A stretch of DNA of 64,000 nt from Mesobacterium pallidum (GTDB lineage Bacteria > Pseudomonadota > Alphaproteobacteria > Rhodobacterales > Rhodobacteraceae). Of the stretch, positions 38,349 through 56,897 are shown in pieces. Under the pieces are notes generated by a model. It had not been told where the DNA came from. It did not search any database and saw only the letters and a list, made by a program, of their open reading frames with translations. Both the position numbers and the translations under genes were made by a program. The stretch lies in NCBI RefSeq assembly GCF_019966535.1, contig NZ_JAIMID010000013.1, positions 1-64,000 of the forward strand. The letters run 5' to 3'. The stretch's first letter is position 1. Each line of letters starts with the position of its first letter.

Positions 38349-38357
38349 AAGGACATC

Positions 38358-39251: not shown

Positions 39252-39263
39252 GGACGACCCGCT

Positions 39264-40397
39264 ATGGCAAAACTGAAATGGGGCATGATCGGCGGCGGCA
39301 TGGGCAGCCAGATCGGACCGGCACACCGGCTGGGCGCGCAGGCGGACGGGCTGTTCGAGTTTGTCGCGGGCGCGCTGGATCACCGCGCCGACGAGGGCCG
39401 CGCCTACGCGCAAAAGCTGGGGATTGCCGCAGACCGCGCCTATGGTGACTGGCAAGACATGCTGGCGGGCGAAAGGGCCCGTCCGGACCGCGTCGATCTG
39501 GTGACGGTCGCCACGCCCAATGCCACCCATTTCGAGATCAGCAAGGCGTTCCTCGAGGCCGGGTTCAACGTGCTGTGCGAAAAGCCCATGACCATGACCG
39601 TCGAAGAGGGTGAAGAGATCGTTCGCGTCGCCAGGGCCTCGGGGCGCATCTGCGCGGTGAACTATTGCTACTCCGCCTATCCGATGATCCGGCAGGCCCG
39701 CGCCATGGTGGCGGCGGGCGAGTTGGGCAAGGTCCGGCTGGTGGTGACGAATTTCAGCCACGGTCACCATGGGGATGCGACCGACGCCGACAACCCGCGT
39801 GTGCGCTGGCGCTATGATCCGGCCATGGCAGGCGTGTCCGGGCAATTCGCCGATTGCGGCATCCACGCGCTGCACATGGCATCGTTCATCTGCAACGATC
39901 AGGTCGAGCGCCTGTCCGCCGATTTCGTCTCGACCATCCCGTCGCGCGAACTGGAAGACGACGCGATGGTGAACTTCCGCATGTCGGGCGGCACGGTCGG
40001 GCGTCTGTGGACGTCATCGGTGGCGATCGGGCGGCAGCACGGCTTTGACATTCAGGTCTTTGGCGAAACCGGCGGGCTGCGTTGGGCCTCCGAGCAACCC
40101 AACCAACTGATCCATACGCCGGTGGGCGGACGCACCCAGATCATCGAAAAGGGCGAGGGCGGGCTGCATGCGGACGCCATGCGCCTTTCCCGCGTCGCCA
40201 TCGCCCATCCCGAAGGTTTTCCCCTGGCGGTTGCGAACATCTATTGCGATCTGGCCGATGCCATCCGGGGCGAGACGCGGGACGGCCTGCCCAATGCCGA
40301 GGATGGCGTGCGCTCGATGGCGGCGGTGCATGCGGCGGTGACCTCGGCCCGCGACAGCGGCGCCTGGGTGGATGCCCGCCCGCCGATGTTCCGCTAA
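39264..40397 (+). CDS. Gfo/Idh/MocA-family dehydrogenase (second of operon)
   Basis: A 377-residue oxidoreductase. The nucleotide motif GMIGGGMGSQIG is followed by the family signature CEKPMTMT with the catalytic Lys. QFADCGIHALHMAS is the active-site helix. In length and motifs it resembles the longer MocA-like branch. Having two different dehydrogenases in one operon suggests sequential oxidation or epimerisation of a cyclitol. It converges with the LacI gene, and the two stop codons overlap at 40394-40397. Confidence 0.87.
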   Translation: MAKLKWGMIGGGMGSQIGPAHRLGAQADGLFEFVAGALDHRADEGRAYAQKLGIAADRAYGDWQDMLAGERARPDRVDLVTVATPNATHFEISKAFLEAGFNVLCEKPMTMTVEEGEEIVRVARASGRICAVNYCYSAYPMIRQARAMVAAGELGKVRLVVTNFSHGHHGDATDADNPRVRWRYDPAMAGVSGQFADCGIHALHMASFICNDQVERLSADFVSTIPSRELEDDAMVNFRMSGGTVGRLWTSSVAIGRQHGFDIQVFGETGGLRWASEQPNQLIHTPVGGRTQIIEKGEGGLHADAMRLSRVAIAHPEGFPLAVANIYCDLADAIRGETRDGLPNAEDGVRSMAAVHAAVTSARDSGAWVDARPPMFR

Positions 40398-41405: not shown

Positions 41406-42434
41406 TCAGACCGATTCCGGCAGATACAGGCGTGGTTCGAGATCGCGGGGCGGCGGCCCGCCTGTCTTGCCAAGCACCGCGCCGACCATGCGCTCGACCA
41501 GATCGGCGCAAAGCTGGTCCAAGGGGGTGGCCATCACCATCGTCACATAGCGATCCGCAAGGGCGCGGCGGCTGTCGGGAGTCAATTCGTTCACGATCAA
41601 GGTGACCTTGTCCGCGGGACGGGTTTCGCGCAAGGCGGCAATCGCGCCCTCCATGCCGCCGCCGGCGACGTACAGCCCGGCCAAATCCGGGTGCCTGGTC
41701 AACAGGTCGAGCGTCGCCTCGTAGGTCAGCTGCCGCGTTTCGAGATTGACCGAAGTGTCGAGCACTTCGATCCGATCCGCGTATTCGCGCAGATAGGACC
41801 GAAAGCCGGTTTCCCGCATCGCCTGCCCATGCCAACGCGTGCCGCCCACAAAGACAGCCACCTTTTCGGGCCTTTGAATGCGGGTTGCCATCATCCACCC
41901 CGCCGTCCGCCCAACCTTCAGATTGTCGAGACCGACATAGCCGCGCCCGGCAGAGCCCGCAAAATCATTGAGCAGCGAAAACAACGCAATGCCCTGCTGC
42001 GCCAGGTCTTGGGCAAGTCCGGTCAGGCTGGCATGGTTGACCCCGGTGGCAGCGATAGCCGTGCAAGACCCCGCGAGGGCGCGGATTTCCTTGACGAAAT
42101 CATCCGGGGACTGAGACCCGGAAAATCTCAACCGCAGCGCGATCGCCACATCGCTGCGCGCTTTGCAGGCGGTCTCGATCTCTGCCGCGAAGCGCTGGTA
42201 GAAATCCTGATTGCGCTTGTGCAGCACAAAGCCCAGCGACAGCTCCGGTCGATCCCGGGCGCCCAGCCGGGCAAGGGGTGCGGGCAGGGGATACCCCAAC
42301 CGCACCGCCGCCTCGGTCACGCGTATCCGAGCGTGCTCCGAGACGTTGGGGCGCGCGTTGAGCACGCGGTCGACTGTGGCTGCGCCGACCTGCGCGGCCT
42401 TGGCCAGATCGGCGATCGTGGGTTTGCGGGTCAT
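41406..42434 (-). CDS. LacI-family regulator (second; paralogue of 44874-45902)
   Basis: A 342-residue regulator with an unusual LacI head (TIADLAKAAQVGAATVDRVLNARPNV). It has the same length as the LacI protein at 44874. They share long blocks, for example SLLNDF, VGR.A.WM, FVGG.RWHG and LETRQLTYEATLDLL. The two are recent-looking duplicates bracketing the MocDE-like genes. It is divergent from the desaturase gene; the inverted repeat at 42452-42481 lies in between. Confidence 0.9.
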   Translation of the reverse strand: MTRKPTIADLAKAAQVGAATVDRVLNARPNVSEHARIRVTEAAVRLGYPLPAPLARLGARDRPELSLGFVLHKRNQDFYQRFAAEIETACKARSDVAIALRLRFSGSQSPDDFVKEIRALAGSCTAIAATGVNHASLTGLAQDLAQQGIALFSLLNDFAGSAGRGYVGLDNLKVGRTAGWMMATRIQRPEKVAVFVGGTRWHGQAMRETGFRSYLREYADRIEVLDTSVNLETRQLTYEATLDLLTRHPDLAGLYVAGGGMEGAIAALRETRPADKVTLIVNELTPDSRRALADRYVTMVMATPLDQLCADLVERMVGAVLGKTGGPPPRDLEPRLYLPESV

Positions 42435-42572: not shown

Positions 42573-43652
42573 ATGACCAAGCGTGACTATTCCATGTTGG
42601 GCCCGGATGCGCAGCGCGCGGTTGAAACCGGTCTGGCTGCCGCCGAGTGGTATCACACCGACATCCCGCGCAAGCAGATGAAGGACCTGATGAAGCGCGA
42701 GGATGGCCCGGCCATCCGCGACACCGCGATCCTGTTCGGGTCGATGATCCTGTTTGCCGCCATCGGCATCGCGCTTTGGCCGTCCTGGTGGTCGGCGCCG
42801 TTCTGGCTGGCCTATGGCGTGCTCTACGGTTCGGCGATGGATTCGCGTTGGCACGAATGCAGCCACGGCACCGCCTTCAAGACGCGGCACTACAACGACT
42901 GGCTCTATCAGGTCGCGTGCTTTTGCATGATCCGCAACCCCGTGACCTGGCGCTGGAGCCACACACGGCACCACACCGACACGGTCATCGTCGGGCGTGA
43001 TCCCGAGATTGCGATCATGCGGCCGCCGGAGTTCGCCCGGCTGATCGCGAATTTCTTCGGGATCTTCGATGCATGGAACGGCTGGGCGCGGATGCTTTAC
43101 AACGCCGCGGGCAAGATCCACCCGGAAGAGGCCACCTGGATTCCCGAGCAGGAGCAGCACAAGGTCGTCCGTGTCGCCCGGATCTGGGTGGCGATCTACG
43201 CCGCCACGATCGGGCTGGCCCTGGCGATGGGTTCGATCCTGCCGCTGATGGTGATCGGTCTGCCCCGGCTTTATGGCGCGTGGCACCATGTGATGACCGG
43301 GCTGCTGCAGCACGGCGGACTGGCGGACAACGTCATCGACCACCGGCTGAATTCGCGCACGGTCTACATGAATCCGGTTTCGCGCTTCATCTACTGGAAC
43401 ATGAACTACCACGTCGAACATCACATGTTCCCGATGGTGCCCTATCACCAGCTGCCCGCGCTGCACGAGGCGATCAAGCATGATCTGCCCGCGCCGAACC
43501 GGTCGATTGCCGCCGGGTTCCGCGAGATGTGGCCCGCCTTGAAGCGGCAGCTCAGGAACGAGGATTTCTTCATCAAGCGCGGGTTGCCCCCCACGGCCAA
43601 ACCGTACCGCGGGGATTTCCACCAGGATGCCCTTGGCACCGCGGCAGAATGA
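42573..43652 (+). CDS. MocD-like membrane desaturase/hydroxylase
   Basis: A 359-residue membrane di-iron enzyme of the fatty acid desaturase superfamily. The three His boxes are visible: HECSH, HTRHH and HVEHH, with hydrophobic segments at about 50-75 and 200-230. The nearest named relative I know is MocD of rhizopine (3-O-methyl-scyllo-inosamine) catabolism, which works with ferredoxin MocE and a reductase. The next gene encodes just such a ferredoxin. O-demethylation or hydroxylation of an inositol derivative, using O2, is therefore likely. GGGGGAGGACCT precedes the ATG at 42573. No reductase gene (MocF) is in the window. Confidence 0.85.
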   Translation: MTKRDYSMLGPDAQRAVETGLAAAEWYHTDIPRKQMKDLMKREDGPAIRDTAILFGSMILFAAIGIALWPSWWSAPFWLAYGVLYGSAMDSRWHECSHGTAFKTRHYNDWLYQVACFCMIRNPVTWRWSHTRHHTDTVIVGRDPEIAIMRPPEFARLIANFFGIFDAWNGWARMLYNAAGKIHPEEATWIPEQEQHKVVRVARIWVAIYAATIGLALAMGSILPLMVIGLPRLYGAWHHVMTGLLQHGGLADNVIDHRLNSRTVYMNPVSRFIYWNMNYHVEHHMFPMVPYHQLPALHEAIKHDLPAPNRSIAAGFREMWPALKRQLRNEDFFIKRGLPPTAKPYRGDFHQDALGTAAE

Positions 43653-43717
43653 CATCGGGCGGGTCGGAGGGGCCCGCCCACTACCACCGAACAGGACTTT
43701 AGGGAGGACACAGGAAA

Positions 43718-44026
43718 ATGCCCTGGATTGACGCTTGCGCGACCGACGACATCGACCAGGAGGATCTGATCCGCTTCGACCACGACGGACGGACCTTCGC
43801 GATCTACCACTCGCCGGACGGAGATTTTTTTTGCACCGACGGCAAGTGCACCCACGAAGAGGTGCATCTGGAGGATGGACTGGTGATGGAATACGAGATC
43901 GAATGCCCCAAGCACAACGCGACCTTCGACTATCGCACCGGCGAGGCGCTGCGCGCCCCCGCCTGCGTCAACCTGAACACCTACCCCGTGAAGGTGGAAG
44001 GTGGACGCGTGATGATCGAGGTCTGA
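43718..44026 (+). CDS. MocE-like Rieske [2Fe-2S] ferredoxin
   Basis: A 102-residue Rieske-type ferredoxin. The two cluster boxes are CTHEE (Cys-x-His) and CPKHN (Cys-x2-His) about 20 residues apart. It matches MocE of rhizopine catabolism in size and layout. It would deliver electrons to the desaturase-like enzyme encoded upstream. GGGAGGACACAGG precedes the ATG. The following gene starts 1 nt after its stop. Confidence 0.9.
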   Translation: MPWIDACATDDIDQEDLIRFDHDGRTFAIYHSPDGDFFCTDGKCTHEEVHLEDGLVMEYEIECPKHNATFDYRTGEALRAPACVNLNTYPVKVEGGRVMIEV

Positions 44027-44027
44027 C

Positions 44028-44810
44028 ATGACACGCCCCACCGTTGCGGATATCCGCGCGCTGAAAGGCCAGCGCACCCTGACGATGCTTTATGTCGAAA
44101 CCCCCGACGAAGCCGCCGCCGCCGCCGAGGCCGGGATCGACATGCTGTCGATCATCGATCCGGTCTGGACCCCGGAGATGCGCGAGGCGGCGGGCGATTG
44201 CTTTGTTCAGGTGGGCTTGCTTTACGGTAAGCTCGTCACGCAAGAGGACTACCTGCGCGCGGCGCATCGCGTCATGCAGATTGGCGGCGATTGCGTCTAT
44301 TGCGCATCCTCGCTTGGCACCATCAAGGCGTTGGCGGATGACGGCGTCCCCGTGGTCAGCCATGTCGGCCTGATCCCGTCCAAATCGACCTGGACCGGCG
44401 GGTTCAAGGCTGTCGGCAAGACGGCGGACAGTGCACTGGCGGTCTGGCGGCATGTGAAGCAGCTGGAAGAGGTCGGAGCCTTCGGGGCTGAACTGGAAGT
44501 GGTCCCGGATCGGGTCGGGGCCGAGATCAGCAGGCGCACGCCATTGATCATGCTGGGCATGGGGGCCGGGTCGGGGGCCGATGCGCAGTACCTTTTCGCC
44601 GAGGATGTGCTGGGCTGCACGCGCGGGCACAAACCGCGCCACGCCAAGACCTATCGCGACTTTGCCGGCGAATATTCCCGGCTGCAGCGCGAGCGGGTCG
44701 CGGCCTTTGGTGAATTCCGCGCCGATGTGGACAGCGGGGCGTATCCCGCGCCAAGTCATGTCGTGCCGATCGACGACGCCGAGTTCGACAGTTTCCTCGC
44801 CGCGCTCTGA
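44028..44810 (+). CDS. PanB-like (ketopantoate hydroxymethyltransferase family) protein
   Basis: A 260-residue TIM-barrel protein of the PanB family. LTMLYVETPDEAAAAAEAG and SHVGLIPSKS resemble the substrate half; PDRVGAEISRRTPLIMLGMG aligns with PanB's ELAAEIT.R...IGIGAG, although the conserved catalytic Glu is not clearly in place. PanB transfers a one-carbon unit from methylene-tetrahydrofolate. In an operon with a MocDE-type demethylation system, which should release formaldehyde, this paralogue might capture that carbon or act as a carbon-carbon lyase. There is no pantothenate gene nearby, so coenzyme A biosynthesis is unlikely to be its job. Confidence 0.8.
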   Translation: MTRPTVADIRALKGQRTLTMLYVETPDEAAAAAEAGIDMLSIIDPVWTPEMREAAGDCFVQVGLLYGKLVTQEDYLRAAHRVMQIGGDCVYCASSLGTIKALADDGVPVVSHVGLIPSKSTWTGGFKAVGKTADSALAVWRHVKQLEEVGAFGAELEVVPDRVGAEISRRTPLIMLGMGAGSGADAQYLFAEDVLGCTRGHKPRHAKTYRDFAGEYSRLQRERVAAFGEFRADVDSGAYPAPSHVVPIDDAEFDSFLAAL

Positions 44811-44844: not shown

Positions 44845-44876
44845 CATGACGTAATTCCGTCACGGAGGACGTCATG
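44845..44876. promoter_or_regulatory. ACGTCAT inverted repeat at the LacI-3 start
   Basis: CATGACGT (44845-44852) and ACGTCATG (44869-44876) are perfect inverted arms; TGACG and CGTCA (44847-44862) form a tighter pair inside. The second arm includes the LacI start codon, as expected for autoregulation. The same ACGTCAT occurs twice at 45913-45943. Confidence 0.6.
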
Positions 44877-45902
44877 GCCCGTCGCCCCACCACCCAGGAT
44901 GTCGCCCGCGAGGCGGGCGTCAGCGTCACCACGGTCGATCGGGCGCTGAACGGACGCGCCAAGGTGCGCAAGGAGACCATGCGCAAGATCGCGCAAGCCG
45001 CGCACAAGGTCGGCTACCATGCGCGTGGGCTCATCGAACAGAACATCGACGCCGCCGTGCCCGAGATGACCTTTGGCTTTGTCTTCATCAAGAAGAGCCA
45101 GGAATTTTACCAGAACTTCGTGCGCGAGGTGGAGCAGGCCGTCGCCGCGCGAACCGATATCCGGGGCCGGGCGGTTGTCCGGTATGCGTCCTCACAAAGC
45201 CCCGAAGATTTCGCCAGGGCGCTGCAAAGCCTGTCGCAGTGCGATGCCATTGCGGCCACGGCGGTCAACCATCAGCTGCTGGCCCAGGTCGTCACCGAGC
45301 TGAAGCATAAGGGTATACCGGTCTTTTCGTTGCTCAACGACTTCGCGCAAGGCGTGCGTCGCAATTACCTGGGCATGAACAATATGAAAATAGGGCGGGT
45401 TGCGGCGTGGATGATCACCAAGACGCTGCCGCAACCGGGCAAGCTGGCCATCTTTGTCGGTGGCAACCGCTGGCATGGGCATGACCTGCGAGAGGTCGGA
45501 TTCCGCTCCTATGTGCGGGAAAATGCGCCCGGGTTTTCCGTTCTGGATACGCTCGTCAATCTCGAAACTCGGCAACTGACATACGAGGCGACGCTGGACC
45601 TGCTGAGCCGGCATTCGGACCTCAAGGGAATCTATGTGGCGGGCGGCGGGATGGAGGGCGCCATCGCCGCGCTGCGCGAAGCCCATTCCAGCCCGCGCGT
45701 GGCCTTGGTCGTCAACGAGGTGACCAAGGAAAGTCGCGCGGCGCTGGTGGATGGCTATGTCACCATGGCGATTTGCACGCCGCTTCCGGCCCTGTGCGCT
45801 GATCTGATCTCGCACATGGTGCGGTCGGTCAAAGAGGGGGATGACGGTATCTCGGGGCAACATTTCCTTGATCCGCACCTGGTGCTGCCGGAAATGCTGT
45901 AA
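44874..45902 (+). CDS. LacI-family regulator (third; paralogue of 41406-42434)
   Basis: A 342-residue LacI-type protein with head TTQDVAREAGVSVTTVDRAL and a sugar-binding-like effector domain. Blocks shared with 41406-42434 run through the whole length. ACGTCAT repeats are present at its own start and again before the downstream isomerase/transport operon. It therefore probably regulates itself and the operon beginning at 46046. Likely effector is an inositol or inositol-derived compound. Confidence 0.9.
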   Translation: MARRPTTQDVAREAGVSVTTVDRALNGRAKVRKETMRKIAQAAHKVGYHARGLIEQNIDAAVPEMTFGFVFIKKSQEFYQNFVREVEQAVAARTDIRGRAVVRYASSQSPEDFARALQSLSQCDAIAATAVNHQLLAQVVTELKHKGIPVFSLLNDFAQGVRRNYLGMNNMKIGRVAAWMITKTLPQPGKLAIFVGGNRWHGHDLREVGFRSYVRENAPGFSVLDTLVNLETRQLTYEATLDLLSRHSDLKGIYVAGGGMEGAIAALREAHSSPRVALVVNEVTKESRAALVDGYVTMAICTPLPALCADLISHMVRSVKEGDDGISGQHFLDPHLVLPEML

Positions 45903-45958: not shown

Positions 45959-46045
45959 CGGCCGATCAATTGACCGAATGCCGCGCTTCGGCGCAACGTC
46001 CGCCTCGTGACAGACGGCGCAAACGCGTCGCGGCGGGAGGACACC

Positions 46046-46861
46046 ATGAAATTTGCACTCAACCAGATGACGGTGCGCCGTCTTGACTACGTGGCCTTCC
46101 TTGATCTTGCCAAGGCGCTTGGATGCATCGGCGTCGAGGTGCGCAACGATCTTGATCGCCCGCTGTTTGACGGGATCGATCCGAAGCAAGCAGGCGACAT
46201 GGCTCGCACGCGCGGGCTGCGCCTGTTGGGCATGAGCGAGGTCTATGCCTTCAACAGCTGGTCCGACGAGATCCGCACCAAGGTCGAGACGATCATTGCG
46301 GCGGCCAAGGCGTCCGGCGCGGAGACCATCAGCCTGATCCCGCGCAACGACGGCACCCAGACCGGCAATGGCGAGCGTCAGGCCAACCTGCGCATCGCCC
46401 TGAAGGAAGTGCTGCCCATGCTGGAGGCCGCGGACATGACCGCACTTGTCGAGCCCCTGGGCTTTGGCCGGTCGTCCCTGCGGTCCAAGCAGGAACTGGT
46501 CGACGTGATCGAGGCGCTGGACGCCGGCCACCGCTACAAACTGGTGCATGACACCTTCCACCACACGCTGGCCGATGGCGGCCCGCTGTTTCCGGAGCAT
46601 ACGGGGATCGTGCATATCTCGGGCGTGGTGGATCCGTCCCTGAGCGTCGAGCAGATGGAGGACGCGCACCGCGTGCTGGTCAACGAACATGACCGCCTTG
46701 GCAATATCGACCAGATCAAGGCGCTGACCGCCGCCGGGTACGACGGCGCGATCTCTTACGAATGCTTTGCGCCGGAGATTCACGCGCTGGACGATCCGTT
46801 CACGGCGCTCCAGCGCTCTTTCGACTTCATCACCTCTGAACTTCAGGCGAAAGCCGCCTGA
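46046..46861 (+). CDS. IolI/MocC-like inosose isomerase (TIM barrel)
   Basis: A 271-residue TIM-barrel protein. MKFALNQMTVRRLDYVAFLD and GCIGVEVRNDL are typical of 2-keto-myo-inositol isomerase IolI and rhizopine protein MocC. Metal residues appear in ALVEPLGFG, HDTFHH and SYECFAPE. GGGAGGACACC precedes the ATG. It opens the operon with the inositol-type binding protein. It would interconvert inosose isomers so that they can enter the iol pathway. Confidence 0.87.
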   Translation: MKFALNQMTVRRLDYVAFLDLAKALGCIGVEVRNDLDRPLFDGIDPKQAGDMARTRGLRLLGMSEVYAFNSWSDEIRTKVETIIAAAKASGAETISLIPRNDGTQTGNGERQANLRIALKEVLPMLEAADMTALVEPLGFGRSSLRSKQELVDVIEALDAGHRYKLVHDTFHHTLADGGPLFPEHTGIVHISGVVDPSLSVEQMEDAHRVLVNEHDRLGNIDQIKALTAAGYDGAISYECFAPEIHALDDPFTALQRSFDFITSELQAKAA

Positions 46862-46943: not shown

Positions 46944-47888
46944 ATGAAAAAGACCCTGATCGCAGCGAGCCTCGTGTCGCTCATGTCCACCACCGCGATG
47001 GCCGAAACCATCGGCGTGTCGATGGCGCTGTTCGACGACAACTTCCTGACGGTGCTGCGCAACGGCATGCAGGACTATGCGGACAGCCTTGAAGGCATCG
47101 ACATCCAGATCGAGGACGCGCAGAACGACGTGGCCAAGCAGCTGGACCAGATCAACAACTTTGCCGCGTCGGGCGTCGATGCGATCATCGTGAACCCGGT
47201 CGACACCTCGGCGACCGAAGCGATGACGCAGGCTGCCGCCGCTGCAGGCATTCCGCTCGTCTACGTGAACCGCCAGCCCGTGAACGTCGATAACCTCCCC
47301 GACAATCAGGCATTCGTGGCGTCCAACGAGATCGAGTCCGGCACGCTGGCCGCCTTCGAAGGCTGCCAGATGCTGCGTGCGGCAGGTCATTCTGCCGGGG
47401 CGGATATCTACATCATGATGGGCGAGCTGTCGAACCAGGCGGCCGTGCAGCGCACCAAGGACTTCCATGACGTGATCGGCATGGACATGTGCAGCTTCAT
47501 CAACGTCATCGACGAGCAGACGGCGAACTGGTCGCGAGACGAGGCGCAGGACCTGATGACCAACTGGCTGTCTTCGGGCGCATCTTTCCAGGCCGTGTTC
47601 GCCAACAACGACGAAATGGCCATCGGCGCGCTCCAGGCCCTGAAGGCGGCGGGTGTCTCGATGGACGACGTGGTCGTGACCGGTGTGGATGCCACCCAGG
47701 ATGCACTTGCGTCGATGCAGGCGGGCGATCTCGATGTGACCGTGTTCCAGAACGCGGCGGGCCAGGGCGCCGGCGCGCTTGACGCGGCGCTGAAACTGGC
47801 GCGCGGCGAGGACGTGCCGCAGAAGGTCTACATCCCGTTCGAACTGGTGACCCCGGCAAACCTCGCCGACTATACGTCGAAGAACTGA
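46944..47888 (+). CDS. Sugar ABC transporter periplasmic binding protein (MocB/IbpA-like)
   Basis: A 314-residue type I (ribose-type) binding protein. Signal peptide: MKKTLIAASLVSLMSTTAMA with cleavage after AMA. The mature start ETIGVSMALFDDNFLTVLRN and VNPVDTSATEAMTQ match the RbsB/MocB fold. GGGAGGAAACCC precedes the ATG. A hairpin follows the gene, then the permease and ATPase genes. myo-Inositol or rhizopine is the likely ligand from the surrounding genes. Confidence 0.92.
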   Translation: MKKTLIAASLVSLMSTTAMAETIGVSMALFDDNFLTVLRNGMQDYADSLEGIDIQIEDAQNDVAKQLDQINNFAASGVDAIIVNPVDTSATEAMTQAAAAAGIPLVYVNRQPVNVDNLPDNQAFVASNEIESGTLAAFEGCQMLRAAGHSAGADIYIMMGELSNQAAVQRTKDFHDVIGMDMCSFINVIDEQTANWSRDEAQDLMTNWLSSGASFQAVFANNDEMAIGALQALKAAGVSMDDVVVTGVDATQDALASMQAGDLDVTVFQNAAGQGAGALDAALKLARGEDVPQKVYIPFELVTPANLADYTSKN

Positions 47889-48099: not shown

Positions 48100-49194
48100 A
48101 TGTCCGAGACGTCCCATGGCATTGGCGGACTGACGTTCGACGCAAAGAAACGCGCATGGCCGAACGAGATGAACGTGTTCATCGCGCTCGTCGCCATCAT
48201 CGCGATCTTCGAGCTGCTGGGGCAAGTCCTGCCCTATATGAACGGTCAGAGCCTGCTGTTCGATTTCAACACAGCCCGCGACGGCACCATCCTGAACATG
48301 GTCCGCCTGAAGATCATCATCCTTCAGGTTTCGATCATCGGCATCATTGCCATCGGATCGACGCAGGTGATCATTTCCGGCGGCATCGACCTGTCGCCCG
48401 GCTCGGTTGTCGGGCTGACCGCGATGGTCTCGATGAGTTTCGCGCAGACCGCGCTGGTGAACGGCAACCCGAACCCCAAGGCGATCTTTGGCGAAGCCTT
48501 CATGGATCTGCCGGTGATCGTACCGATCATCGTGGCCCTCGCCATCGGCATCCTTGCCGGGGCGGTGAACGGATTGCTCATCGCCTACACCAAGATTCCC
48601 CCTTTCATCGCAACGCTCGGAATGATGGTCGCGGCGCGCGGGGCCGCCAAGTGGTGGTCCAAGGGGCAGCCAATCTCGTTTCCGACCGACCCCTTCGCCG
48701 ACATCGGCAACGGGCTGGCGGGCTGGTCGCCCGTGGTCATCTTCATCGGCCTGGCAATCCTGTTCCACTTTGTCCTGAAGTACACCGTCTACGGCAAGCA
48801 CACCTATGCCATCGGGTCCAACGAGGACGCGGCGCGCATGTCCGGCATCAAGGTCGACCGCCACAAGGTGCTGGTCTACACGATTGCAGGGATGCTGGCG
48901 GGCCTGTCGGCGCTGGTGCTGGCCTCCAAGAACCTGACGGCGCAGGCCGGCATGGGGGTGATGTATGAACTTGACGCCATCGCCATGACCGTCATCGGCG
49001 GCGTCAGCCTGGCCGGCGGGCGCGGATCCATCGTGGGCACCGTGCTGGGGGCGTTGATCTTTGGCGTGATCATCTCGGGCTTCACCTACCTGCGCCTCGA
49101 CGCCTACTACCAGGAGATGGTCAAGGGGGCGATCATCGTGGCTGCCGTGGTGCTCGACCAGTGGCGCCGTGGGCGCGCCGCGGCGCGCGGATAA
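48100..49194 (+). CDS. Sugar ABC transporter permease (RbsC/inositol type)
   Basis: A 364-residue polytopic membrane protein of the ribose/xylose permease family. SGGIDLSPGSVVGLTAM and FIATLGMMVAARG are the usual loops. ALVLASKNLTAQAGMGVMYELDAIAMTVIGG is the segment touching the ATPase. GGGAGGGAAGAGG precedes the ATG. The C-terminus ends with a basic RRGRAAARG tail. It works with the binding protein at 46944 and the ATPase at 49207. Confidence 0.93.
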   Translation: MSETSHGIGGLTFDAKKRAWPNEMNVFIALVAIIAIFELLGQVLPYMNGQSLLFDFNTARDGTILNMVRLKIIILQVSIIGIIAIGSTQVIISGGIDLSPGSVVGLTAMVSMSFAQTALVNGNPNPKAIFGEAFMDLPVIVPIIVALAIGILAGAVNGLLIAYTKIPPFIATLGMMVAARGAAKWWSKGQPISFPTDPFADIGNGLAGWSPVVIFIGLAILFHFVLKYTVYGKHTYAIGSNEDAARMSGIKVDRHKVLVYTIAGMLAGLSALVLASKNLTAQAGMGVMYELDAIAMTVIGGVSLAGGRGSIVGTVLGALIFGVIISGFTYLRLDAYYQEMVKGAIIVAAVVLDQWRRGRAAARG

Positions 49195-49206: not shown

Positions 49207-50040
49207 ATGAGCGACGTACAGACAAATCTTTACAGCACGGACTTCTCTCACGGCGCGGCGCCGTCGGGCGAGGTGATCCTGGAAACGCGCGGCCTCACCA
49301 AGCATTACGGTGGCGTGCATGCCCTGCAGGACGCGAATTTCATCCTGCACAAGGGCGAGCACGTGGCGATCATGGGCGACAACGGGGCGGGCAAGTCCAC
49401 CTTCGTGCGCCAGATCACCGGGGTCGAAACCCGCACCCGCGGCGAGGTCGTCTTTGACGGCAGGCCGGTGCATTTCGAGAACCCGATGGATGCCCGCGAC
49501 GCGGGGATCGAGACGGTGTTCCAGACGCTGGCGCTGGCCGATCAGCTCGATGTGCCCGACAACCTGTTCCTCGGGCGCGAGCTGGTCAAGTTCAAGCTCG
49601 GGCCGTTCTCGATCCTCGACTACAAGGCCATGCGCGAGCGGACGATCGGCGCGCTGGAAAAGACCGGCGTCAAGATCCCCAACATCCGTGGCACGATCGA
49701 ACGGATGTCGGGGGGGCAGCGGCAATGCGTGGCCATCGCCCGCACCGCGACCTTCCATTCCAAGCTGACCATCATGGACGAACCCACGGCCGCGCTTGGC
49801 GTGCAGGAGACCGCGCAGGTCGAGAACATCATCCGCACGCTGAAAGAGCAGGGCGAGCCGCTGATCCTGGTCAGCCACAACATGCGGCAGGTGATGGACC
49901 TGTGTGATCGGATTGTCGTCTTCCGGCGCGGGCGCATCTGCGCAAATCTCGACATCCGGGCCGGCGAAATCTCCGGCGAGGACGTCGTGGCCTATATCAC
50001 CGGCGCCAAGACCCAGCCGGAATATGCCGACGCCGCCTGA
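49207..50040 (+). CDS. Sugar ABC transporter ATPase (single nucleotide-binding domain)
   Basis: A 277-residue ATPase. Walker A GDNGAGKST, signature MSGGQRQ, Walker B LTIMDEP and the switch His in VSHNM are all present. Ribose-type transporters often use an ATPase with two fused domains (about 500 residues), but this one has only one, so it should act as a homodimer. Such short forms are common in rhizobial and roseobacter inositol/fructose systems. It follows the permease by 12 nt. Confidence 0.93.
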   Translation: MSDVQTNLYSTDFSHGAAPSGEVILETRGLTKHYGGVHALQDANFILHKGEHVAIMGDNGAGKSTFVRQITGVETRTRGEVVFDGRPVHFENPMDARDAGIETVFQTLALADQLDVPDNLFLGRELVKFKLGPFSILDYKAMRERTIGALEKTGVKIPNIRGTIERMSGGQRQCVAIARTATFHSKLTIMDEPTAALGVQETAQVENIIRTLKEQGEPLILVSHNMRQVMDLCDRIVVFRRGRICANLDIRAGEISGEDVVAYITGAKTQPEYADAA

Positions 50041-50123: not shown

Positions 50124-51122
50124 ATGACTGTGAAATTCGGAGTTCTCGGCGCAGGTCGCATCGGACAAGTCCACGCCCGCGCCATCGCCTCGGTCCCCGG
50201 GGCCACTCTGGTCGCCGTGGCGGACGCGGTCGCGGCAGCGGCACAGGCGCTGCAGGATCAGTACGGCTGCGAAATCCGCAGCATCGAGGCCATCGAACAG
50301 GCGGATGACATCGACGCGGTGATCATCTGCACGCCCACCGACACCCATGCCGATCTGATCGAACGCTTCGTGAAGGCCGGCAAGGCCGTGTTCTGCGAAA
50401 AGCCCGTCGATCTCGACGTGGCCCGCGCGCGCCAGGTGATCGAAACCGTCGCGGCCCAGAACGGCACCCTGATGGTCGGCTTCCAGCGCCGGTTCGATCC
50501 CGATTTCCGGGCGCTCAAGGCCGCCATCGACGAGGGCCGCATCGGCGAGGTCGAGATGGTCACGCTGACCTCGCGCGATCCGGGCGCGCCGCCGCCCGCT
50601 TACATCAAAAGCTCCGGCGGCATCTTCCGCGACATGACGATCCACGATTTCGACGTGGCGCGCTGGCTCTTGGGCGAAGAGGTGGAAACCGTGATGGCGC
50701 AGGCTTCGGTCCTGACCGACCCCGAGATCGGCAAGCTGGGCGATTACGACAGCCTCAACGTGATCCTGCGCACCGCCAGCGGCAAGCAATGCACCATCAC
50801 CAACACCCGCCGCGCCACCTATGGCTACGACCAGCGGATCGAGGTGCACGGCTCCAAGGGGTCCGTTTCTGCCATGAACCACCGCGAGGCGAACATCGAG
50901 CTGGCCAATGGTGACGGCTACACCAAGCCGCCGCTTCTGAACTTCTTCATGTCGCGCTACACGGCGGCCTATGCGGCCGAGATCTCGGCCTTTGTCGAAG
51001 CGGTCGAACAGGGGGCGCCGACGCCGACCACGGGTCTGGACGGGTTGCGCGCGCTCGAGCTGGCCGATGCGGCGCTGCAATCCGCAAAATCCGGTCAGGC
51101 CGTTACCTTGGCCACCAACTGA
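50124..51122 (+). CDS. iolG: myo-Inositol 2-dehydrogenase
   Basis: A 332-residue Gfo/Idh/MocA enzyme. The Rossmann motif GVLGAGRIGQVHA is at residues 5-17 and FCEKPVDLD holds the catalytic Lys. FRDMTIHDFDVARWL carries the Asp and His of the active site. These features are characteristic of IolG, which oxidises myo-inositol to scyllo-inosose with NAD. The start at 50124 follows GAGGAAGACT; an earlier ATG at 50112 is possible. It begins the iolG-C-D-E-B set, the next steps of the same pathway. Confidence 0.92.
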   Translation: MTVKFGVLGAGRIGQVHARAIASVPGATLVAVADAVAAAAQALQDQYGCEIRSIEAIEQADDIDAVIICTPTDTHADLIERFVKAGKAVFCEKPVDLDVARARQVIETVAAQNGTLMVGFQRRFDPDFRALKAAIDEGRIGEVEMVTLTSRDPGAPPPAYIKSSGGIFRDMTIHDFDVARWLLGEEVETVMAQASVLTDPEIGKLGDYDSLNVILRTASGKQCTITNTRRATYGYDQRIEVHGSKGSVSAMNHREANIELANGDGYTKPPLLNFFMSRYTAAYAAEISAFVEAVEQGAPTPTTGLDGLRALELADAALQSAKSGQAVTLATN

Positions 51123-51180: not shown

Positions 51181-53106
51181 ATGACGAAACCCTTGGACGT
51201 TATCACGATTGGCCGCGCGGGCGTGGACCTGTATGGCGCGCAGATTGGCGGGCGGCTCGAGGACATGGCGTCCTTCGACAAGTATATCGGGGGGTCTCCG
51301 ACCAATATCGCCTGCGGGACGGCGCGGTTGGGGCTGAAGTCGGCGCTGATCAGCCGCGTGGGCGACGAGCACATGGGGCGGTTCATCGTCGAGCAGTTGC
51401 GGCGCGAGGGGGTCGAGACCAGAGGCGTCAAGACCGATCCCGAGCGGCTGACGGCGCTGGTGATCCTTGGCATCCGCGATCAGGAGCAATTTCCGCTGAT
51501 CTTCTACCGCGAGAATTGCGCGGATATGGCGCTGTGCGAAGGCGACATCGACCCCGAGTTCATCAAATCCGCGCGCTCGGTCGTGCCCACCGGCACGCAC
51601 CTGAGCCACGAACGCACCCGCGCCGCCGTGCTCAAGGCGCTGACCATCGCGCGTGAAAACGGGGTGAAGACCGCTTTGGACATCGACTACCGACCGAACC
51701 TCTGGGGCGTCTTGGGTCATGGCGACGGCGAAAGTCGCTTTGCCGAAAGCGCCGAGGTGACGGCGCAGTTGCAATCGACGCTGCACCTATTCGACCTGAT
51801 CGTCGGCACTGAGGAGGAATTCCACATCGCGGGCGGCTCGACCGACACCATCGCCGCCCTGCGCGCCGTGCGGGCCGTGTCGGGGGCGGCGCTGGTCTGC
51901 AAGCGCGGGCCGATGGGGGCCGTGGCCTTTGAAGGGGATATTCCGGACTCGCTGGACGATGGCCAGACCGGCCCCGGCTTCCCGATCGAGGTGTTCAACG
52001 TGCTGGGCGCGGGCGATGGCTTCATGTCCGGGCTGCTCAAGGGCTGGCTGGATGGCGAGCCCTGGCCCGTTGCGCTGAAATACGCCAATGCCTGCGGGGC
52101 GTTTGCCGTGTCGCGGCATGGCTGCACCCCGGCGTACCCGTCATGGGATGAACTTCAGTTCTTCTTCGAGCGCGGCATCATCCAGCCCGACCTGCGCAAC
52201 GACGCAGAGCTGGAGCAGGTCCATTGGGCCACCAACCGCCATACGCGCCCCGGCGCGCAGGCGGAGGTGCTGCGGACCTTTGCCTTTGACCACCGGATGC
52301 AGCTGGAGGAGATGGCGGGCTATACGCCCGACAAGGGCGCGACCTTCAAGGAGCTGTGCCTCGACGCGGCGCTGAAGGTGCGGAACGGCCAGCCCGGCTA
52401 TGGGATCCTGTGCGACAACCGCATCGGGCGGTCTGCGCTGCACCGCGCCAGCGGCTCGGGCCTGTGGATCGGGCGCCCGACCGAGGATCCGGGCTCGCGC
52501 CCGATCCAGTTCGAAAAGGACCTTGGCATCGACTTTGGCCGGTTCCGGGAGTGGGCGGTCGAGGACGTGGTCAAGCTGCTGGTCTTCTGCCACCCGGACG
52601 ACGATGCGACCACGCGCGCGCTGCAAGAGGAACGCGTCCTGCGCCTCTTCACCGCCGCGCGGCGGGCCGGGCTGGAATTCCTGCTGGAGGTGATCCCGTC
52701 GAAGGTCGCGCCCGTCGATGACACCACCACGGCCACGCTGATCCAGCAGTTCTACGATGCGGGGGTCTACCCCGACTGGTGGAAACTGGAGCCGTTCAAG
52801 ACCGACGCCGCCTGGCAGAACGCCGTGGATGCGATCACCCGCAACGACCCGCGCACGCGGGGCATCGTGGTGCTGGGCCTCGATGCGCCCGAGGATGAAC
52901 TGGCGGCTTCGTTCCAGCTGGCGGCCAAGCAGCCGCTGGTCAAGGGCTTTGCCGTCGGCCGCACGATCTTTGGCGATGCGGCCCGCGCCTGGATGCAGGG
53001 CGAGATGAGCGACGCGGACGCGGTCGGGATGATGGCCAGGCGGTTTTCCCACCTGTGCGAAGTCTGGGACACGGCCCGCGCCGGTGCCCTGCAAGCTGCC
53101 GAATAA
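51181..53106 (+). CDS. iolC: Bifunctional 5-dehydro-2-deoxygluconokinase with DUF2090 domain
   Basis: A 641-residue fusion. Residues 1 to about 320 are a PfkB kinase (GRAGVDLYGAQIG, GGSPTNIACG, and NVLGAGDGFMSG with the catalytic Asp). Residues of about 345-640 are a DUF2090 barrel (FAFDHRMQLEEMAG, GFAVGRTIFGDAARAW). The barrel resembles the class I-type aldolase LacD/IolJ-like fold, so the protein may both phosphorylate the keto acid and cleave the product. Long fused forms are usual in proteobacterial iol operons. It is 12 nt before iolD. Confidence 0.92.
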   Translation: MTKPLDVITIGRAGVDLYGAQIGGRLEDMASFDKYIGGSPTNIACGTARLGLKSALISRVGDEHMGRFIVEQLRREGVETRGVKTDPERLTALVILGIRDQEQFPLIFYRENCADMALCEGDIDPEFIKSARSVVPTGTHLSHERTRAAVLKALTIARENGVKTALDIDYRPNLWGVLGHGDGESRFAESAEVTAQLQSTLHLFDLIVGTEEEFHIAGGSTDTIAALRAVRAVSGAALVCKRGPMGAVAFEGDIPDSLDDGQTGPGFPIEVFNVLGAGDGFMSGLLKGWLDGEPWPVALKYANACGAFAVSRHGCTPAYPSWDELQFFFERGIIQPDLRNDAELEQVHWATNRHTRPGAQAEVLRTFAFDHRMQLEEMAGYTPDKGATFKELCLDAALKVRNGQPGYGILCDNRIGRSALHRASGSGLWIGRPTEDPGSRPIQFEKDLGIDFGRFREWAVEDVVKLLVFCHPDDDATTRALQEERVLRLFTAARRAGLEFLLEVIPSKVAPVDDTTTATLIQQFYDAGVYPDWWKLEPFKTDAAWQNAVDAITRNDPRTRGIVVLGLDAPEDELAASFQLAAKQPLVKGFAVGRTIFGDAARAWMQGEMSDADAVGMMARRFSHLCEVWDTARAGALQAAE

Positions 53107-53118
53107 AGGGCTGGTGAC

Positions 53119-54963
53119 ATGACACAAACGATCCGACTGACCGCCGCGCAGGCCATGGTGCGTTACCTTGCGGCGCAAAGGACCGAAACCGGCGAGCGCT
53201 TCATCGACGGTGTCTGGGCGATCTTCGGCCATGGCAACGTGGCCGGCCTCGGCGAAGCGCTGCATGACGCGGGCGATGCGCTGCCGACCTGGCGCGGCCA
53301 GAACGAACAGACCATGGCACATGCGGCGATTGCCTTTGCCAAGGCGTCCAGGCGGACGCGCGCCATGGCAGTGACCTCGAGCATCGGGCCGGGCGCGACC
53401 AACATGGTGACGGCGGCGGCGCTGGCGCATGTGAACCGCATTCCGCTGCTCTTGATCCCCGGCGACGTGTTCGCCAATCGCCGCCCCGATCCGGTGCTGC
53501 AGCAGGTCGAGGATTTTGACGATGGCACGGTCTCGGCGAATGACTGTTTCCGGCCCGTCAGCCGGTACTTTGACCGGATCACCCGGCCCGAACACCTGCT
53601 GACCTGCCTGCCGCGTGCGATGGCGGTGATGACCGATCCGGCCAATTGCGGCCCCGTCACGCTGTCCTTCTGTCAGGATGTGCAGGCCGAGGCGCATGAC
53701 TATCCGCACGCCTTCTTTGAGCCGCGCGTCTGGCGCATCCGTCGCCCGGAGCCGGATGCGGGCGAACTGGCCGAGGTCGTTGACCTGATCAAGGCGGCGA
53801 AGAACCCGGTCATCGTCTGCGGAGGCGGGGTGATCTACTCTCGGGCCGAAGACGTGCTGGGCGACTTCGCCACGCGCCACAACATCCCCTTCGTGGAAAC
53901 CCAGGCGGGCAAGTCGGCGCTGGCGCAGGCGCACCCGATGAACTTTGGCGCCTCGGGTGTCGATGGCTCGGCGGCGGCGAACGCGGTGTCCGAGACCGCC
54001 GACCTGGTGATCGGGGTCGGCACGCGGTTCCAGGACTTCACCACCGGGTCCTGGGCCTTGTTCAAGAACCCCGCGCGGCGGTTGGTCTCGATCAACGTGG
54101 CGGCTTATGACGCCGTCAAACACGGCGCGGTGCCGATGGTGGCCGACGCGAAAGTGGCGCTGAACAAGATCAGCGCCGCCCTGGGCGACCATGCGGCAAG
54201 CGCCCCGGACGCCAGGCTGCGCGCCGAGTGGCTGGACGCCGTCACCGCCCATTGTCAGCCCCGCACGGGCGGCGAAGGCTATCGCCCGCTCGATGCCGAG
54301 GTGATCGGTGCCGTCCAGCGCGCGACCGGCGAGGATGCCGTGGCGATGTGCGCCGCCGGCACGATGCCCGGTGCGCTCAAGCTGCTGTGGCAAGCCAGCC
54401 AGGGCGGCTATCACATGGAATACGGCTTCAGCTGCATGGGCTACGAGATCGCCGGCGCGATGGGCCTGAAACTGGCGTCTCCCGAACGCGAGGTGATCTG
54501 CTTTGTGGGTGACGGCAGCTACATGATGGCGAACAGCGAGTTGGCCACGGCGGTGATGCGCCGCGTGCCCTTCACCGTCGTGCTGACCGACAACCGGGGC
54601 TACGGCTGCATCAACCGCCTGCAAACCCTGGTCTGCGGCGGGCCGTCCTTCAACAACCTCTACGAGACCTGCAATGTGCAGGACCAGCCGCAGATCGACT
54701 ATGTCGCCCACGCCGCCAGCATGGGGGCCCATGCGGTCAAGGCCGCCGACATCGCGGCTTTGGAAACCGAGATTGCAAACGCCCGTGGCCGCACCATCCC
54801 CACCGTGATCGTGATCGAGACCAACCCGGCCGAGGGACCCGGATTTGGCGCGGCAGGCCACTGGTGGGACGTGGCGGTGCCCGCGGTCAGCGACCATGAC
54901 GGCGTGAACAAGGCCTATGCGGCCTACCTGGACGGTATGACGAAGCAACGGCTGGTCAACTGA
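53119..54963 (+). CDS. iolD: 3D-(3,5/4)-trihydroxycyclohexane-1,2-dione hydrolase
   Basis: A 614-residue thiamine diphosphate enzyme that opens the ring of the diketone formed by IolE. The N-terminal domain (RLTAAQAMVRYLAAQ; GHGNVAGLGEAL; NEQTMAHAA with the cofactor Glu) and the C-terminal ThDP motif (VGDGSYMMANSELATAVMRR, then DNRGYGCINRLQ) are complete. It is the only iolD in the window, so the second inositol-like operon at 34-40 kb would have to rely on it. It lies tightly between iolC and iolE. Confidence 0.95.
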   Translation: MTQTIRLTAAQAMVRYLAAQRTETGERFIDGVWAIFGHGNVAGLGEALHDAGDALPTWRGQNEQTMAHAAIAFAKASRRTRAMAVTSSIGPGATNMVTAAALAHVNRIPLLLIPGDVFANRRPDPVLQQVEDFDDGTVSANDCFRPVSRYFDRITRPEHLLTCLPRAMAVMTDPANCGPVTLSFCQDVQAEAHDYPHAFFEPRVWRIRRPEPDAGELAEVVDLIKAAKNPVIVCGGGVIYSRAEDVLGDFATRHNIPFVETQAGKSALAQAHPMNFGASGVDGSAAANAVSETADLVIGVGTRFQDFTTGSWALFKNPARRLVSINVAAYDAVKHGAVPMVADAKVALNKISAALGDHAASAPDARLRAEWLDAVTAHCQPRTGGEGYRPLDAEVIGAVQRATGEDAVAMCAAGTMPGALKLLWQASQGGYHMEYGFSCMGYEIAGAMGLKLASPEREVICFVGDGSYMMANSELATAVMRRVPFTVVLTDNRGYGCINRLQTLVCGGPSFNNLYETCNVQDQPQIDYVAHAASMGAHAVKAADIAALETEIANARGRTIPTVIVIETNPAEGPGFGAAGHWWDVAVPAVSDHDGVNKAYAAYLDGMTKQRLVN

Positions 54964-54987: not shown

Positions 54988-55893
54988 ATGAGCGTGAAGA
55001 TCGGGATCTCGCTGATCGCCTGGCAGAACGACGACCTGCCTGACCTGACCGCCGCCTTCACCACGACAGGCGCGATGGAGGATGCGGGGAAGGTCGGCTA
55101 TCAGGGGGTCGAGCGCGGCCGCCGCATGCCCGCCGATACCGAGGGCTTGCGGGCCTATCTGGACCGCTATGGCGTGTCGCTGTGCGGCGGCTGGTGTTCA
55201 GGCAACCTGATGGTCAACGATCTGGCGACCGAACAAGACGCGATCCGCCAGCAGGTCGACCAGTTCGCCGCGCTGAACGCGCCCTGCATCGTCTACGCCG
55301 AGTGTTCGAACACCATTCAGGGGGCCATCGACACGCCCGTGTCGCGCCGTCCCAAGCTGAGCCGTGACGAGGTCAGGACCTATGCCGCCAAACTGTCCGA
55401 GCTGGCGAAGTGGTCGGCGGATCGCGGCACGCCCTTGGCCTATCACCACCACATGGGCGCGATGGTTCAGGATGCCGAGGATATCGACTGGCTGATGGAG
55501 GGCTCGACCCCCGATCTGCACCTGCTTTACGACACCGGGCATTTGCATTTTGCCGGGGCCGATCCCTTGGCCGTGCTGGACAGATGGGGCCACCGGGTAA
55601 AGCATGTCCACTTCAAGGACGTGCGCCAGCCGGTGCTGGACTGGGTCCATGCGCAGGACGAGAGCTTTCTGGATGGCGTGGCGGCGGGGGTCTATTCCGT
55701 GCCGGGCGACCCCGAAGGCTGCATCGACTTCCAGGCGATCACCGACCGTCTGGCCCAGATGGACTACACCGGCTGGATCGTCGTCGAGGCCGAGCAGGAC
55801 CCGGCCAAGGCCCCGCCCTACGAGTATTCCAAGCTGGGTTATGATCACATCCTGGATATCTGCGCCAAGTCCGGCCTGACCGTGGCGCGCTGA
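54988..55893 (+). CDS. iolE: Inosose dehydratase
   Basis: A 301-residue TIM-barrel enzyme that removes water from scyllo-inosose to give the diketone used by IolD. GISLIAWQNDDLPDL and ERGRRMPAD at the N-terminus, AYHHHMGAMVQ, LYDTGHLHFAG and KHVHFKDVR are conserved IolE metal-site stretches. Its N-terminus is unlike the IolE-like protein at 38358-39251, so these are different subfamilies. It lies between iolD and the small membrane protein gene, which starts 1 nt past its stop. Confidence 0.94.
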   Translation: MSVKIGISLIAWQNDDLPDLTAAFTTTGAMEDAGKVGYQGVERGRRMPADTEGLRAYLDRYGVSLCGGWCSGNLMVNDLATEQDAIRQQVDQFAALNAPCIVYAECSNTIQGAIDTPVSRRPKLSRDEVRTYAAKLSELAKWSADRGTPLAYHHHMGAMVQDAEDIDWLMEGSTPDLHLLYDTGHLHFAGADPLAVLDRWGHRVKHVHFKDVRQPVLDWVHAQDESFLDGVAAGVYSVPGDPEGCIDFQAITDRLAQMDYTGWIVVEAEQDPAKAPPYEYSKLGYDHILDICAKSGLTVAR

Positions 55894-55894: not shown

Positions 55895-56098
55895 ATGTTC
55901 GACCTGCGCCACCCCTTCTTCAATCCGATCTGGCGCCGCATCCTGACGGTGGTCCTGGCGCTTGGATGGGCCGTGGTCGAACTCCTGACCGGCAGCCCGG
56001 GATGGGCTTTGATGTTCGGCGCGGTCGGGGCCTGGGCAGGCTATGTCCTGCTGCTGACCTGGGTGCCGGTCACCGATAAGAGGACTTCTGATGACTGA
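55895..56098 (+). CDS. Small two-segment membrane protein in the iol operon
   Basis: A 67-residue protein with FNPIWRRILTVVLALGWAVV and WALMFGAVGAWAGYVLLLTW as membrane segments. It begins 1 nt after iolE and its end overlaps the iolB start by 8 nt, so it is translated with the operon. It recalls small DUF3329-like proteins, but the identification is weak and no function is known. Confidence 0.75.
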   Translation: MFDLRHPFFNPIWRRILTVVLALGWAVVELLTGSPGWALMFGAVGAWAGYVLLLTWVPVTDKRTSDD

Positions 56099-56897
56099 TC
56101 TGCTGCGTAAACCCTTTGGCACCCATGGCAAGGTGCATGAGATCACGCCGCAATCGGCGGGCTGGCGCTATGTCGGCTTCTCGCTGTACCGCCTGCGCGC
56201 GGGCGAAACCGTGGCCGAGGCGACAGGCGACCGCGAGGTGATCCTTGTCATGGTCGAGGGCAAGGCACGCGTCACCGGCGCGGGGCAGGATTGGGGCGAG
56301 TTGGGCGCGCGGATGGATGTCTTCGAAAAGACGCCGCCGCATTGCCTGTATCTGCCGAACGGGTGCGACTGGACGGCGGAGTCCACGACCGATTGCGTGA
56401 TCGCGGTGTGCAGCGCGCCGGGGCAGGGCGGGCATGCGGCGCGGCGCATCGGCCCCGACGGGATCACCCTGACGGAACGCGGCAAGGGCGCCAACACGCG
56501 ATATATCAACAACATCGCCATGGAGAACGAGGATTATTGCGACAGCCTGCTGGTGACCGAGGTCTTTACCCCCGCGGGCCACTGGTCTTCCTATCCGTCA
56601 CATCGCCACGACGAGGACGACTACCCCCGGATCACCTACCTCGAGGAAACCTATTACCACCGGCTGAACCCGGCCTCGGGCTTTGGCATCCAGCGCGTCT
56701 ATACCGACGACCTGCAACTGAACGAAACCATGGCCGTCGCTGATGGCGACGTGGTACTGGTGCCGCGCGGGCACCATCCCTGCGGTGCGCCCTACGGGTT
56801 CGAGATGTACTACCTCAACGTCATGGCCGGGCCGCTGCGGAAGTGGCGCTTTGTGCCGGCACCAGAGGTCGAGTGGATCATGGAACGGGACGCATAG
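56091..56897 (+). CDS. iolB: 5-Deoxy-glucuronate isomerase
   Basis: A 268-residue double cupin that turns 5-deoxy-glucuronate into 5-dehydro-2-deoxygluconate, the IolC substrate. SSYPSHRHDEDDYPR, then EETYYHRLNPASGFG and GHHPCGAPYGFEMYYLN are the standard metal and substrate motifs. AAGAGGACTTCTG precedes the ATG, which overlaps the 67-residue gene. It is the canonical copy; the minus-strand protein at 35319-36170 is the divergent one. Last gene of the operon. Confidence 0.94.
   Translation: MTDLLRKPFGTHGKVHEITPQSAGWRYVGFSLYRLRAGETVAEATGDREVILVMVEGKARVTGAGQDWGELGARMDVFEKTPPHCLYLPNGCDWTAESTTDCVIAVCSAPGQGGHAARRIGPDGITLTERGKGANTRYINNIAMENEDYCDSLLVTEVFTPAGHWSSYPSHRHDEDDYPRITYLEETYYHRLNPASGFGIQRVYTDDLQLNETMAVADGDVVLVPRGHHPCGAPYGFEMYYLNVMAGPLRKWRFVPAPEVEWIMERDA

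Follow-up and report, generated by a model that had tools for sequence, protein, structure and literature searches.

Genes of the mocD-mocE-PANBL set

The window analysed here is a 64,000-nucleotide stretch of Mesobacterium pallidum DNA (contig NZ_JAIMID010000013.1), and it carries three adjacent genes on the forward strand for a membrane oxygenase, a ferredoxin and a PanB-like protein. An earlier note on this DNA had described the three genes in this order, with the third beginning 1 nt after the second, and all are confirmed at their positions. The mocD-like gene (42573..43652, + strand) encodes a His-box membrane oxygenase of the FA_desaturase family (Pfam PF00487, 121.6 bits, cut-off 29.7). 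It starts with ATG at 42573, has a good ribosome-binding site ahead (GAGGGGGAGGA) and stops at 43652. Its His boxes are HECSH94, HTRHH130 and HVEHH280, and the histidines are at least 90% conserved in an alignment of 54 MocD-type proteins. The FA_desaturase domain, the three His boxes and the adjoining MocE together place the protein in the MocD type. No solved structure related to MocD is found at E 0.1. The mocE gene (43718..44026, + strand) encodes a Rieske-type 2Fe-2S ferredoxin (NCBIfam TIGR02377, 168.3 bits, cut-off 136.15) with the ligand motifs CTH44 and CPKH63, as in the MocE family.

The third gene (44028..44810, + strand) starts 1 nt after the mocE stop and belongs to PF02548 (125.2 bits, cut-off 28.7). 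It fails the panB equivalog TIGR00222, with 91.2 bits against a cut-off of 207.55 bits. It has the motif E155-x-E157 and lacks the residues D84 and E114 of PanB. We use the name PANBL for non-canonical PF02548 proteins of this type. Two more PF02548 genes are present in the genome, a canonical panB beside panC (contig C53) and a second PANBL (C50). No fusion of PANBL with a partner was seen: in the loci compared, no frame matched another model at more than 80 bits in addition to PANBL.

Fold and active site of PANBL

The AlphaFold2 (AF2) model of the window PANBL has a predicted local distance difference test score (pLDDT) of 85.3 and a predicted template modelling score (pTM) of 0.82; two stretches with conserved positions, residues 121-124 and 201-209, are below 50 in pLDDT. 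A fold search with this model returns PanB entries at Z 20.4-27.6, while the next entry is at 15.5. PANBL is thus a PF02548 member of the PanB fold, yet it is not PanB. In PanB, we take D45, D84 and E114 to be the Mg2+ ligands and E181 and H136 to be the catalytic residues. These positions were compared between 20 canonical sequences and 138 non-canonical ones, the latter without hits that align over fewer than 200 residues, rows that contain X, identical duplicates and L003, in which the window gene occurs a second time. A tree of these 158 sequences gives three well-supported groups: the 20 canonical sequences, 6 PANBL linked to VanA-type oxygenases and the 132 other PANBL.

D84 and E114 are each present in 20/20 canonical sequences and in 0/138 PANBL, and D45 is kept in 49 of the 138 against 20/20 canonical. 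K112 is lost in 132 of the 138, which are all those outside the VanA-linked group. E181 is kept in all 138 and H136 in 137. V179 of PanB, present in 20/20 canonical sequences, is a glutamate in 138/138 PANBL. It stands two residues before E181 and makes an E-x-E motif, which is E155-x-E157 in the window protein. PanB has a loop of some 20 residues behind strand 2, which is absent in 85 close and 4 class-B aligned sequences and is retained in the VanA-linked group. In a class-wide search, 11 of the 12 fetched loci encode E-x-E proteins and one (L253) is canonical. In these 11 sequences D84 is replaced by S or C and E114 by Q, while D45, S46 and K112 are retained. A further E-x-E group (L247-L252) has C for D84 and Q for E114; L248 has a weak FA_hydroxylase match next door, L251 an FA_desaturase gene and L247 a DctP-type binding protein.

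PANBL therefore resembles PanB (EC 2.1.2.11) in family, fold, E181 and H136, and differs from it in D84, E114 and K112, in V179, in the loop for the 85 close and 4 class-B sequences and in the tie to panC described below. The earlier note had taken the protein for a member of the PanB family, which normally handles methylene-tetrahydrofolate. Family and fold stand, but the PanB active site does not, and with D84 or E114 in none of the 138 sequences, use of 5,10-methylene-tetrahydrofolate in the PanB manner cannot be assumed. One explanation is that PANBL still transfers a hydroxymethyl group from methylene-tetrahydrofolate, now to a pathway intermediate as a changed aldol acceptor, and does not collect one-carbon (C1) units at all. 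The best Z of 27.6 and the conserved E181 and H136 positions agree with it, and the MttB and GcvT gene contexts described below would supply folate C1 units. It is quite unlikely, given the loss of D84 and E114 throughout, the loss of K112 in the 132 sequences outside the VanA group and the lack of a single acceptor suited to all contexts.

Linkage to MocE and oxygenases

We searched 292 Rhodobacterales genomes with a PANBL profile and the MocE model. Rates are taken from this set because the 80 close-relative loci, the best 80 of 575 relatives, lean to near kin; many of these loci are also ended by contig ends. The search gives 61 PANBL genes in 53 of the 292 genomes, and a score gap from 136.5 to 102 bits splits them from canonical panB. 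PANBL genes of at least 300 bits with the profile are called close (32 genes in 31 genomes). An over-cut-off MocE gene lies within 10 kb of 28 of the 32 close PANBL genes and within 3 kb of 25, as compared with 0/25 canonical panB genes checked within 10 kb. Genome-wide, MocE is present in 30/31 close-PANBL genomes and in 14/261 others (Fisher p 4.6e-29, kinship not corrected for).

PANBL genes farther from the window protein are seldom near an over-cut-off MocE (3/8 and 0/21), and for this reason 5 kb on either side of all 61 genes was examined. This gives 60 loci, one with two PANBL genes. Genes were called with a codon model and families were searched with hidden Markov models (HMMs) built from gene clusters, so that oxygenases outside those families would go unnoticed in these 60 loci and the 20 controls. 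An oxygenase lies within 5 kb in 51 of the 60 loci: MocD-type in 28, FA_hydroxylase (PF04116) in 17 and VanA-type Rieske in 6. None of the three families is found within 5 kb of canonical panB in 20 control loci, where the sole other hits are two weak mocF fragments (L138). This 0/20 rests on the HMM hits themselves, as a score threshold left 1 of the 20 canonical loci. The 25 canonical rows and 20 control loci were hand-picked from among the canonical genes, mostly from genomes with PANBL or MocE. Contig ends cut control loci L145 and L157 and PANBL loci L126, L131 and L137. The oxygenase company is kept across three families, so PANBL is tied to oxygenases even where the family differs. The earlier note had proposed to give up its idea if the PanB-like gene were not linked to mocDE in other genomes; the linkage is conserved.

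On the tree, the MocD label and the FA_hydroxylase label must each have changed at least 10 times to agree with the supported branches, with losses and mixed labels counted. The labels are clustered, as 0/500 shuffles come as low for MocD and 0/500 for FA_hydroxylase. The tree is from a quick search with no bootstraps, and the partner labels come from stretches of unequal length, in which "none" includes cut contigs. The second, more distant PANBL of the window genome (G000:C50:199483-201654; L002, L185) adjoins an FA_hydroxylase gene and a second MocE, so both oxygenase versions occur in one cell. In L131 (4992-6574), two tandem PANBL genes precede a MocD-type gene. A PANBL branch with L119, L120 and L189 has no known oxygenases nearby; L120 has RbsD, a PfkB kinase and a phosphonate-type binding protein.

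These links to three oxygenase families, and often directly to MocE, could also mean that PANBL carries out no C1 chemistry itself and serves the oxygenase or ferredoxin as an accessory, in assembly, in docking or as a scaffold for electron transfer. The catalytic glutamate and the new E155 are invariant in the 138 sequences, PANBL is found with MttB-family or formate dehydrogenase genes in places where the three oxygenases were not seen, and some copies have no partner in sight. On balance we consider such a role very unlikely.

PANBL and pantothenate synthesis

Canonical panB is present in 24 of the 31 close-PANBL genomes, and all 24 have panC. The other seven have no canonical panB, and panC is found in 0/7 of them. 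This distribution shows that PANBL is no stand-in for PanB. The earlier note had also named a role as the sole pantothenate enzyme as evidence against its idea, and the absence of panC from all seven PANBL-only genomes speaks otherwise. A second pantothenate enzyme (PanB2) would explain the database name 3-methyl-2-oxobutanoate hydroxymethyltransferase and the pantothenate Gene Ontology (GO) term. It is hardly conceivable: D84 and E114 are lost, the NCBIfam panB score is below its cut-off, 24 of the 31 genomes hold a canonical copy as well, and the remaining 7/7 lack panC too. We reject PanB2 on the loss of D84/E114 and the panC distribution. The same name and GO term are carried by PANBL in L086, L088 and other plasmid records, an annotation that is unsupported here.

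One-carbon genes near PANBL

A full-length purU gene, for formyl-tetrahydrofolate deformylase, lies within 8 kb in 9 of the best 80 of 575 loci; Leptothrix and an Acidimicrobiia bin are among the nine, and the identity of the gene product was shown separately for one. This count leaves out short hits (L027, L061) and hits at locus edges (L007, L088). Among plasmid loci, purU is at the edge of two, L087 by HMM and L088 by annotation. In L030 and L034, mocE-PANBL is back to back with genes of NAD-linked formate dehydrogenase make-up. A LysR gene stands between the two sets in L030, and in L034 a convergent purU adjoins PANBL. Together with L163, these loci have mocE-PANBL beside formate-dehydrogenase-type genes and none of the three oxygenases nearby.

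A DmdA-like GcvT protein is encoded in 5 of the 6 VanA-linked loci and in L244; one such protein has 370 bits against a cut-off of 410. A VanA-type oxygenase adjoins a PANBL that keeps D45, S46 and K112 in L128, L129, L130, L193, L194, L196 and L244, and the DmdA-like GcvT is near this pair in all of them except L128. PANBL of the VanA-linked kind is also found beside an MttB-family methyltransferase in L242 and L243, with RACo and GCV_T seen in L242, and beside a PhyH dioxygenase in L245. In genome G304, a canonical panB and a purU gene are about 9.6 kb apart; we regard this as chance.

Surroundings of the operon and likely substrate

Both regulators that flank mocD-mocE-PANBL are of LacI type. 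One is divergent from mocD (41406..42434, - strand; PF00356 38.3 bits, PF13407 106 bits), and a LacI gene is at the equivalent place in many relatives. The second follows PANBL (44874..45902, + strand; PF00356 50.4 bits, PF13407 118.1 bits). Next on the + strand is a xylose-isomerase-like protein with a triosephosphate isomerase (TIM) barrel, an epimerase or isomerase candidate (46046..46861, longer reading 46007-46858; PF01261 71.1 bits), which has no NCBIfam match. It is followed by ATP-binding cassette (ABC) transporter genes for a sugar-type substrate-binding protein (46944..47888, +; best NCBIfam RbsB, 134.5 bits), a permease (48100..49194, +; MglC, 216.3 bits) and an ATPase (49207..50040, +; YtfR, 188 bits), all under their NCBIfam cut-offs. 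A complete iol set lies downstream, also on the + strand and every member above its cut-off: iolG inositol 2-dehydrogenase (50124..51122; TIGR04380, 418.9 bits, cut-off 355), an iolC kinase fused to an aldolase (51181..53106; NF047869, 690.3 bits, cut-off 600), iolD (53119..54963; TIGR04377, 867.2 bits, cut-off 715), iolE inosose dehydratase (54988..55893; TIGR04379, 372.5 bits, cut-off 290) and iolB (56091..56897; TIGR04378, 345 bits, cut-off 205). Upstream, at 37167-40397, two Gfo/Idh/MocA dehydrogenases flank an IolE-like gene, all under NCBIfam cut-offs; these are likely further cyclitol enzymes.

The earlier note had proposed rhizopine-type catabolism. This fares poorly: the window binding protein scores 42.7 bits against the cut-off of 420 for the rhizopine-binding equivalog, and the full iol operon follows. 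Rhizopine catabolism proper is weakened by the same two observations. With a complete set of iol genes downstream, the substrate is more likely to be a methylated inositol than rhizopine.

Demethylation of rhizopine requires MocDEF, and the rhizobial mocDEF genes were reportedly linked by Bahar in 1998 to the demethylation of 3-O-methyl-scyllo-inosamine. In Sinorhizobium meliloti 1021, SM_b20817-20820 are lacI-mocD-mocE-mocF (PMC11387232), and the mocDEF arrangement is thus already in print (PMC11387232, PMC10107442). The MocD-type oxygenase, the MocE ferredoxin and the LacI regulator are common to rhizobia and the window. In the window, by contrast, mocF is absent between mocE and PANBL, the binding protein is not of the rhizopine type and the iol operon is complete. 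The excerpt of PMC11387232 that deals with the S. meliloti 1021 moc genes makes no mention of PANBL. On pSymB of S. meliloti ml28, genes for LacI, a desaturase-family protein, MocE, an FAD oxidoreductase and PANBL stand in a row.

Proposed role in one-carbon transfer

Vanillate demethylases of the VanA type cleave methoxy groups with release of formaldehyde. PANBL stands beside several unrelated oxygenases and methyl-transfer systems, and so it probably handles the released C1 fragment; the simplest product common to its neighbours is a C1 unit. We slightly favor the reading that mocD-mocE-PANBL is an operon for oxidative O-demethylation that feeds the iol pathway, with PANBL loading the C1 unit onto tetrahydrofolate (THF). 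In this scheme MocD, reduced via MocE, would hydroxylate the O-methyl group of a methylated inositol or a close relative. The hemiacetal would break into inositol, which would enter the iol pathway, and formaldehyde. PANBL would be a PanB paralogue in which the half of the site that serves the metal and the keto acid is lost and a second acidic residue has arisen before the catalytic glutamate (E155-x-E157). It would accept either formaldehyde or, directly, the hydroxymethyl intermediate while still bound, and put this C1 unit on THF to give 5,10-methylene-THF, which would then be oxidized to formate or used in biosynthesis. That PANBL loads THF has about an even chance, on the basis of ancestry and neighbours. 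Folate is proposed as the carrier because of the PanB ancestry and the purU, GcvT, MttB and formate dehydrogenase neighbours.

Several observations weigh against this reading. The independent purU cases are fewer than nine, because one gene layout is common to L017, L018 and L023 and a second to L036 and L037. Genome-wide, purU is not enriched (9/31 close-PANBL genomes and 93/261 others, counted by eye), and it occurs in just 2 of the 60 PANBL loci of the 292-genome set. As a genome-wide partner of PANBL, purU is rejected. Nine of the 60 loci have no oxygenase of the three families within 5 kb. Extension of all of these but L169 by about 10 kb finds one 7-13 kb away for L168, L171 and L172 and none for L119, L120, L123, L163 and L189. 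(After the extension, L201-L209 and L211 have none of the HMM families and L210 has fdsA only.) Among the best 80 of 575, L010, L041, L053 and L068 have neither mocE nor an oxygenase. The FA_hydroxylase and VanA-type neighbours need not be demethylases; one VanA-type neighbour has methylsterol monooxygenase as its best NCBIfam match, with 82.5 bits against a cut-off of 600. The MttB system of L242 and L243 should yield methyl-THF by demethylation and no formaldehyde. We found no known folate site in any PanB for comparison. Deletion of panB and ltaE in Escherichia coli leaves growth dependent on formaldehyde and THF unchanged, so canonical PanB is no precedent (PMC7073904), and the conserved dehydrogenase neighbour in a different demethylation cluster turned out to have no part in formaldehyde detoxification (PMC10033563).

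Some of the same facts would fit a PANBL that works without folate and acts on the oxygenase product as a hemiacetal lyase, or on another C1 acceptor, with the E-x-E of its TIM barrel as acid-base pair. The residues for the keto acid and the metal have been lost, no folate site is in evidence and purU is not enriched genome-wide. The clustered oxygenase labels look as if PANBL recognizes the product or the enzyme, an effect that shared ancestry alone would also give. However, one would expect very different substrates for the MocD, VanA-type, FA_hydroxylase and MttB systems, yet E-x-E is constant (138/138 and 11/11), and neighbours such as GcvT, purU, MttB and formate dehydrogenase suggest a flow of C1 units through folate. 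We regard the folate-free role as doubtful.

Relation to known systems and significance

Enzymes that load formaldehyde are known for other carriers, Fae for methanopterin and Gfa for glutathione. Like the role proposed for PANBL, Fae speeds the condensation of formaldehyde with a pterin cofactor (PMC7073904, PMC8879981); the two are likened by role alone. The cofactor of Fae is tetrahydromethanopterin, whereas that proposed for PANBL is THF, and PANBL is a PanB paralogue. The THF-loading step is of interest because a review gives it as spontaneous (PMC8879981) while it was measured as far too slow for growth in E. coli, where spontaneous condensation would permit a doubling time of more than three weeks (PMC7073904).

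According to PMC4433239, genes for methanesulfonate monooxygenase (a formaldehyde-producing Rieske enzyme), GcvT and a 3-methyl-2-oxobutanoate hydroxymethyltransferase occur together in the methanesulfonate region of Filomicrobium sp. Y, and the hydroxymethyltransferase gene is labelled "C1-moiety transfer". There the panB-annotated gene is not singled out as a separate family, and we liken it to PANBL by annotation alone. The earlier note held that coupling of demethylation to C1 use by such a protein was not described. This is nearly right, apart from that label, and its interpretation as a whole is partly supported. This methanesulfonate neighbour aside, no description of PANBL as a separate demethylation family was found in our searches of open-licence PMC papers. 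The protein families and the mocDEF order are already known; what appears to be new is PANBL as a separate family that would serve demethylation.

More widely, it is possible, if somewhat less than evenly probable, that PANBL is a dedicated C1-loading family, the THF counterpart of Fae, which arose when a PanB lost its metal site and acquired the E-x-E pair and which serves as a plug-in for MocD, FA_hydroxylase, VanA-type and probably methanesulfonate oxygenases and MttB systems. PANBL is a direct candidate for the missing THF-loading step, as it adjoins likely demethylases and descends from an enzyme that uses methylene-THF. If this is true, many database entries now named as pantothenate enzymes would be corrected, and E-x-E without D84 and E114 would be a marker for finding such operons.

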